The notes below the pieces were generated by a model. The model did no database searches. It had not been told where the DNA came from and worked only from the letters and a program-made list of their open reading frames with translations. The position numbers and the translations under genes were made by a program. A stretch of DNA of 37,759 bases from assembly GCA_949538625.1 (NCBI GenBank), contig CATISD010000038.1, positions 1 through 37,759 on the forward strand, in the 5' to 3' direction. Positions 2,339 to 32,215 of the stretch are shown one piece after another; the first letter of the stretch is position 1; every line of letters starts with the position of its first letter. Source of the DNA: Acidimicrobiales bacterium AG-410-I20. GTDB lineage: Bacteria; Actinomycetota; Acidimicrobiia; Acidimicrobiales; MedAcidi-G1.

Positions 2339-2504
2339 GTTCTCCTAACTATGCTGGCTACAAATTTCACCAGTTTTCATAATCCTAACCAGAAGCAGGT
2401 GATGGGTAGAACCGGAGAAATAAAAAATTTAAAGAAGTGCTGAAGATGCCACGTTTTATAAGGCTGAGCCACTACAGTCAAATCATTCAATTATTGGAGG
2501 CACA

Positions 2505-2972
2505 ATGCTTGAAGAAGGAAACCCAGCACCACAATTTTCAGCACCAGATCAGCATGGAAACATGATTAACCTTGAAGACTTTTCTGGCCAATGGATAGCT
2601 CTTTGGTGGTACCCCAAAGCAAGCACACCTGGTTGAATGCTTGAAGGAGGAGGGTTCCGTGACCGAACTCTCGAATTTAAAGCCCTGAATGCAGTAATCA
2701 TTGGTGCAAGTTTCGACACTATCGAAGAACAAAAAGCATTTGCCGAAAACCAAAACTATGAATTTTCTCTACTTTCAGACCCTGATCGCACAATGGGCGA
2801 GGCATATAAAGTAATTCGCCCCCCTGATCACCCATTGGTCAGCCTTCCAGAACGGGTTACTTATTTGATTTCCCCTGACGGGTTGATCGCTAAGGCTTAT
2901 GACCCTAGTAGCGCGACAAGTTTAGATGAGCATTCCGCACAGTTGCTCATTGACATAGAAGAGTTGAGTTGA
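2505..2972 (+). CDS. Peroxiredoxin (BCP/AhpC-TSA type), predicted selenoprotein with Sec44
   Basis: ATG at 2505 follows a GGAGG 4 bases away. The frame is open to a TGA at 2634-2636 and then continues without interruption to a second TGA at 2970-2972, giving 155 residues if the first TGA is read. Upstream residues are WWYPKASTPG and downstream MLEGGGFRD; the family consensus is YPKA.TPGCT.EA..FRD, so TGA occupies the peroxidatic Cys position exactly. No Cys occurs anywhere else in the product. The later FRD, GASFD, SDPDR and PERVTYLI motifs are intact, which argues against decay. A stem-loop follows the TGA (2650-2672). Predicted role: selenol-dependent reduction of peroxides in the cytoplasm. 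The stop overlaps the next gene's TTG. Pseudogenisation is the alternative. Confidence 0.82.
2650..2672 (+). promoter_or_regulatory. Candidate bacterial SECIS stem-loop of the peroxiredoxin gene
   Basis: Starting 13 bases after the TGA at 2634-2636, GAGGGUUC (2650-2657) pairs with GAACUCUC (2665-2672) in eight consecutive pairs (one G-U), leaving the 7-base loop CGUGACC. A GU dinucleotide sits in the apical loop at 2659-2660. Bacterial SECIS elements that bind SelB are short hairpins directly downstream of UGA with a GU in the apical loop. No clear bulged U is present in the stem, so the match is incomplete. This is inference from pairing by eye, not a folded energy model. Confidence 0.5.
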
Positions 2973-31699: not shown

Positions 31700-32215
31700 T
31701 CAGACTTTACGGTTAGTTTCAACGAATTTTTCAAAAGCATCACCAGTCAAATCGCCCATATGGCCGGTTACATCACCGGTAGCAGTCACTAAGACTGTTG
31801 CCGGTTGCCCAAACACTCCGAACCGTTCCCACACAGAACCATCAATATCAACCAAGTTGATAAGCCCAGTTAAGCTCCATTCATTCAAAGTGGCAGAAAC
31901 AACGTCAAGACCATCACCTTCACGCGCAACACCGACAATAGTTAGGTCCTCAATAGTTATGTTTGCCTCAGCGACCGTTGGGGCTTCTCGACGACAAATC
32001 GTTCAATTCGGATCCCAAAACCAAAATAAGACGTCCTTACCGCCAAGCGTTGCTACATCAAATTCTGAGCCATCAACCTGAACCGAAGTAAAGTTCAGAA
32101 TTTTTGGAATAGAGGAATCTAAGTTCTGGCTTTGATTATTTTCCCCGCTGCAACTTAAGGTTCCGACAACAAAAAAGACGAAACACAAACATACAACTAC
32201 TGGACGCAAACGCAC
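31700..32215 (-). CDS. Thioredoxin-like (TlpA/DsbE type) lipoprotein, predicted selenoprotein with a Sec71-T-I-C74 motif
   Basis: Two half-frames (32215-32003 and 31888-31700 as open stretches) lie in the same frame, separated only by TGA at 32005-32003, with sense codons throughout. Reading through gives 171 residues. Before TGA is VLFWFWDPN, after it TICRREAPTV; the family pattern is FWAPWC..CR.EAP, so TGA takes the first Cys of the CxxC active site, making U-x-x-C. Later VFGQPATVLV contains the cis-Pro loop. The N-terminus looks like a lipoprotein signal (Cys22, imperfect lipobox). GTG start with TAGAGT six bases upstream suggests leaderless mRNA. Role: extracytoplasmic disulfide or peroxide reduction. 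A disrupted gene is the alternative. Confidence 0.83.
31965..31984 (-). promoter_or_regulatory. Candidate SECIS hairpin of the thioredoxin-like gene
   Basis: On the mRNA, bases 19-38 after UGA can form GCC/GGC, then CA/UG and C/G pairs around a GGUC apical loop, with two mismatches. The loop GGUC resembles the GGUCU apex of the E. coli fdhF SECIS. The stem is imperfect and other foldings exist, so this is weak evidence by itself. Confidence 0.35.

Follow-up and report, generated by a model that had tools for sequence, protein, structure and literature searches.

The gene at positions 2505-2972 (+ strand) of the window (the whole stretch of DNA analysed, 37,759 nucleotides, contig C38 of the source genome) almost certainly encodes a peroxiredoxin selenoprotein. 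A hairpin downstream of an in-frame TGA would direct selenocysteine (Sec) to residue 44, at the peroxidatic position, and the selenium would serve in peroxide reduction; insertion, activity and the use of an outside reductant are predicted. The original prediction of a Sec peroxiredoxin is supported by the Sec genes of the genome, by the conservation of the TGA and by a covarying hairpin.

An in-frame TGA conserved at the catalytic codon

The frame runs from ATG (2505-2507) to TGA (2970-2972), an ordinary terminator on the + strand. Its sole internal stop is the TGA at 2634-2636 (+), codon 44, which occupies the peroxidatic position in TPGU as judged from the frame and from the alignment of homologues. 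Translated with this TGA as Sec, the product has 155 residues, carries the motif KASTPGU and contains no Cys at all. The Pfam AhpC-TSA profile spans the TGA with 109.6 bits (cut-off 26), and domain match and homologues together place the gene in the BCP/PrxQ type. The five closest named relatives share the gene's ribosome-binding site, GGAGG, which lies here at 2496-2500 (+). The observation of an in-frame TGA in place of the catalytic Cys, in an otherwise intact and Cys-free frame with a good ribosome site, is therefore confirmed. These five relatives also retain ACTACAGTC, which lies at about 2471-2479, roughly 25 bases ahead of the start, and is perhaps a promoter element.

A plain listing of open reading frames, with TGA as a stop, gives only 2637-2972 (111 aa) and loses the first 43 residues together with the Sec, as had been anticipated for automated callers. 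TGA is likewise a normal stop elsewhere in the window, where it terminates 9 of the 31 gene frames listed. Both facts agree with a reading in which the internal TGA is a real stop and the locus is a pseudogene, a sequencing error or a source of the 43-residue stub only. Against this reading, the exact TGA is kept, in a frame that is otherwise open, in 80 of 80 sequences (the best 80 of 259 relatives from a search of named genomes, GTDB r220); neither a sequencing error nor decay would hit the catalytic codon repeatedly. We regard a real stop as exceedingly improbable; pseudogene and sequencing error are refuted in practice by the conservation of the TGA. Cys forms could be picked up in this search through one of its three patterns, which had Cys in place of the Sec. 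The record titles of these best 80 of 259 mostly name Acidimicrobiales, Acidimicrobiia, Acidimicrobiaceae or Candidatus Microthrix, while some say no more than Actinobacteria/Actinomycetota or bacterium. Identity is highest for the single-cell genome AG-410-I20 (89%), followed by AG-439-B19 (81%) and MedAcidi-G2B (79%). One member of the 80, L172, is titled Deltaproteobacteria and carries a TGA homologue at 50% identity, which is either a transfer or a mislabelled bin.

Sec decoding of the conserved TGA is also favoured by a survey of 397 genomes of the order, 311 of which have some match at E 1e-15 or better. Close homologues (at least 128 bits) with one in-frame TGA occur in 79 genomes and a close homologue without it in one (G126); all 17 genomes of the source's own family fall in the TGA group. 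The seventy loci that were fetched represent 62 of these 79 genomes; the remaining 17 are counted from the tally alone, a reservation made because one tallied entry (L091, contig C24 of G342), rejected as a TGA homologue, proved to have its TGA only at the gene end and to be a Cys peroxiredoxin. The alignment called for by the original prediction has TGA at the catalytic column in 65 of the 70 loci, Cys in four (L054, L056, L057 and L091) and Ser in one (L055). The TGA falls at the same residue in every one of the 62 fetched genomes that have a close TGA homologue, so its placement is beyond chance. Another sense codon accompanied by decay, named beforehand as the pattern that would speak against a selenoprotein, is not what the close relatives display: the TGA is kept, the frames are intact and one close homologue has Cys. 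That homologue, L054 (TPGC), is the only close one with Cys instead of Sec, and its genome, G126, has selA and tRNA-Sec.

Selenocysteine genes and further TGA-containing redox genes

The source genome (1,496,268 bases in 149 contigs, 85.02% complete, 5.94% contamination) contains each of selA, selB, selD and selC tRNA-Sec, for which a search had been proposed. The tRNA-Sec scores 63.1 bits (cut-off 47) and is called tRNA-SeC with anticodon tca by ARAGORN. SelA (399.6 bits, cut-off 267.9) and selB (299 bits, cut-off 242.25) are adjacent, selB beginning at the base where the selA frame ends. A profile match of 361.7 bits identifies selD (L022, contig C101, 753-1673, - strand), whose frame has its own in-frame TGA, read GAGUGCK. 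Sec decoding is therefore expected, and a genome lacking selB and selC, which would have spoken against the prediction, is not what was found. The Sec genes sit on contigs other than that of the window and could in principle be foreign, given the level of contamination; the presence of selA in 17 of 17 sampled genomes of the source's family counts against this.

Conservation of the TGA by itself implies read-through and would fit decoding as another amino acid, by a change of code or by suppression with another tRNA; nothing specific points to such a reading. It is opposed by the ordinary genes that end in TGA, this peroxiredoxin included, by the selA, selB, selD and tRNA-Sec of the source genome, and by the Cys found at this position in the four homologues listed above. 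On these three grounds a change of code was rejected, and we consider decoding as any residue other than Sec very improbable.

Across the survey, selA (E 1e-40) occurs in 73 of the 79 genomes with a TGA homologue versus 164 of the 318 others (Fisher p 1.5e-12, with related genomes that are not independent). Six TGA genomes (G063, G197, G242, G261, G299 and G311) have no selA match even at E 0.001 and no selB match over the cut-off, and five of the six have a tRNA-Sec over the cut-off. Their missing selA and selB are likely to be assembly gaps.

Two further redox genes carry an in-frame TGA. The first, at 31700-32215 (- strand), is a second predicted selenoprotein with a thioredoxin fold, a lipoprotein-like (lipobox-like) start and a UxxC motif (WFWDPNUTIC; Sec codon 32003-32005). 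Its Sec column has TGA in 26 of 30 fetched loci and Cys in four (L185, L190, L196 and L197). Folds of 63 and of 46 bases from its TGA gave nothing beyond shuffled sequences; the presence of CTGCGGTCGCAG in several related genes suggests a conserved hairpin there. The other, also of thioredoxin fold, has its active-site TGA in SSWUGC, as read from the frame (L004, contig C73, around 1008-1337).

A covarying hairpin downstream of the TGA

A SECIS-like hairpin lies within the coding sequence at 2650-2672 (+). The stem of eight pairs (2650-2657/2665-2672, one pair being G-U) begins 13 bases past the TGA, in agreement with the hairpin originally described, and closes the loop CGUGACC. Its stability in the single sequence is ordinary (z -0.88, a stability that 34 of 200 shuffles equal or exceed), so that chance is ruled out only by comparing relatives. 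Alignment A1, of 60 distinct sequences, omits two more distant TGA homologues (L092 and L093) and the non-TGA loci L054-L057 and L091. In this alignment 80.4% of the stem cells pair versus 74.6% after shuffling (0 of 500 as high), a proportion that falls to 60.0% or less when the stem is slid, and the covariation score is 0.287 versus 0.195 for shuffles (0 of 500). Two of the five measures, pairs with a double change (191/500) and pair types (493/500), do not exceed the shuffles. Among the 60 sequences, columns 22/34 are occupied by UA (29), CG (18) or UG (10) and columns 21/35 by GC (39) or AU (15); 12 retain the outermost pair.

All six core pairs form in 54 of 65 TGA sequences, a set that includes L092 and L093, and in none of the five non-TGA homologues (L054-L057 and L091); the background rate in the same genes, taken over 6175 positions, is 1.05%. 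A minority group, for example L069, can pair one base out of register, where 1 of the 65 scores six of six. The loop columns C25, G26, T27 and G28 are invariant in 63 sequences. The downstream hairpin thus covaries across relatives. According to the available text of PMC1088965, bacterial SECIS elements carry a guanosine in a small apical loop; structure and covariation together identify the present hairpin as a predicted element of this kind.

Active site, proposed mechanism and known selenocysteine peroxiredoxins

By sequence profile the closest solved structures are BCP/PrxQ proteins, e.g. PDB 5iph and 3drn. A protein alignment of 22 sequences hand-picked for spread (A2) shows no variation at P37, T41 and R117, nor at residue 44, which is Sec except for the Cys of L054; we take P37, T41 and R117, with residue 44, to make up the peroxidase site. 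The gene shows the sequence features of a Sec peroxiredoxin (Prx, TxxU), namely an AhpC-TSA domain, a TGA at the peroxidatic residue where homologues have Cys, a predicted SECIS hairpin shortly after it with G in the small apical loop, and a host with selA, selB, selC and selD; for this class the motif PxxxTxxU is stated in the available text of PMC13188914.

The protein reaches the cut-off of no NCBIfam model: it scores 92.7 bits against the BCP thiol peroxidase equivalog NF006960 (cut-off 140) and 38.4 bits against the PrxU equivalog NF040737 (peroxi_PrxU; cut-off 270). In PrxQ proteins the resolving Cys lies five residues after the catalytic one. This position is Gly in the product of the window's gene, which, being Cys-free, lacks the resolving Cys of the two-Cys PrxQ mechanism. 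Outside the Sec position, 68 of the best 80 of 259 named-genome relatives are free of Cys, and L128 and L151 carry one five residues past the Sec. The Cys-free chain and the scores below the equivalog cut-offs of known peroxiredoxins could also point to a selenoprotein that is not a peroxidase, namely a thiol oxidoreductase or redox sensor of peroxiredoxin fold. The retained P-x3-T-x2-U motif and Arg, with P37, T41 and R117 invariant in the 22 sequences, argue against such a function, which we judge unlikely.

For the preferred reading, a Sec peroxidase, the following sequence of events may be proposed. SelB with Sec-tRNA would bind the hairpin just past the UGA and place Sec at residue 44. 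Carried on a BCP/PrxQ-type fold, the selenium in this peroxidatic position would then reduce hydrogen peroxide or organic peroxides, the selenol being converted to selenenic acid. In 1-Cys peroxiredoxins the oxidised peroxidatic residue is reduced by an outside thiol. Because the protein has no resolving Cys, an outside thiol most likely reduces the oxidised selenium in the same way.

The close homologues in this lineage almost all keep Sec and have mostly lost the resolving Cys, which is mildly distinctive. We tentatively propose, with somewhat less than even confidence, that a Sec-fixed and mostly Cys-free 1-Sec PrxQ branch has been kept through the diversification of the Acidimicrobiales, that the gain of Sec preceded the loss of the resolving Cys, leading to dependence on an outside thiol, and that the hairpin has steered the protein sequence, the F/L and T/I/A/V residues encoded by its two arms changing together.

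The group shows clearly how an order can retain Sec at a single catalytic site, Cys being rare among close homologues, and its members form a set for separating the constraints of the RNA hairpin from those of the protein. They suggest the use of selenium for peroxide defence in these actinobacteria. Mechanical ORF listing cuts the gene short, and automatic annotation probably does so too, in a widespread marine group.

Two known families differ from the present one. The BCP/PrxQ Cys forms (PDB 5iph and 3drn) have Cys where the window's gene has Sec, and their PrxQ resolving Cys is absent here. PrxU of Eubacterium acidaminophilum, reportedly described by Sohling in 2001 and cited in PMC13188914, is a Sec peroxiredoxin like the present protein; the low score against NF040737, which we take to model its family, places the window's gene in a different peroxiredoxin branch.

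The closest likeness is with environmental sequences. In the available texts, Sec peroxiredoxin (COG1225, TxxU) ranks among the commonest selenoproteins of both marine surveys: it takes second place in the Sargasso Sea, with 43 genes (PMC1088965), and the GOS survey counts 253 Sec peroxiredoxin sequences (PMC2398784). Peroxiredoxin also appears among bacterial selenoproteins in the available parts of a 2006 survey, including Symbiobacterium, then placed in Actinobacteria (PMC1794560), of a 2016 survey with 91 Prx selenoproteins in 78 organisms (PMC5029168) and of a 2026 review that lists Prx with TxxU (PMC13188914). A word search of the available deep-Sep text (PMC12013277) returned no actinobacterial or peroxiredoxin terms, and no paper on Acidimicrobiales selenoproteins was found in the open-access literature. 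The Sargasso Sea and GOS Prx (PF00578/COG1225) share domain family, TxxU motif and marine source with the present gene, and the selenoproteins of PMC1088965 have, in its available text, bacterial SECIS hairpins after the UGA, as here. Since 'actinobacteri' is absent from the available texts of PMC1088965 and PMC2398784, those reads appear not to be assigned to this lineage there, whereas the present gene belongs to Acidimicrobiales. Sec peroxiredoxins are thus already known from ocean bacteria, and their assignment to Acidimicrobiales is made here.
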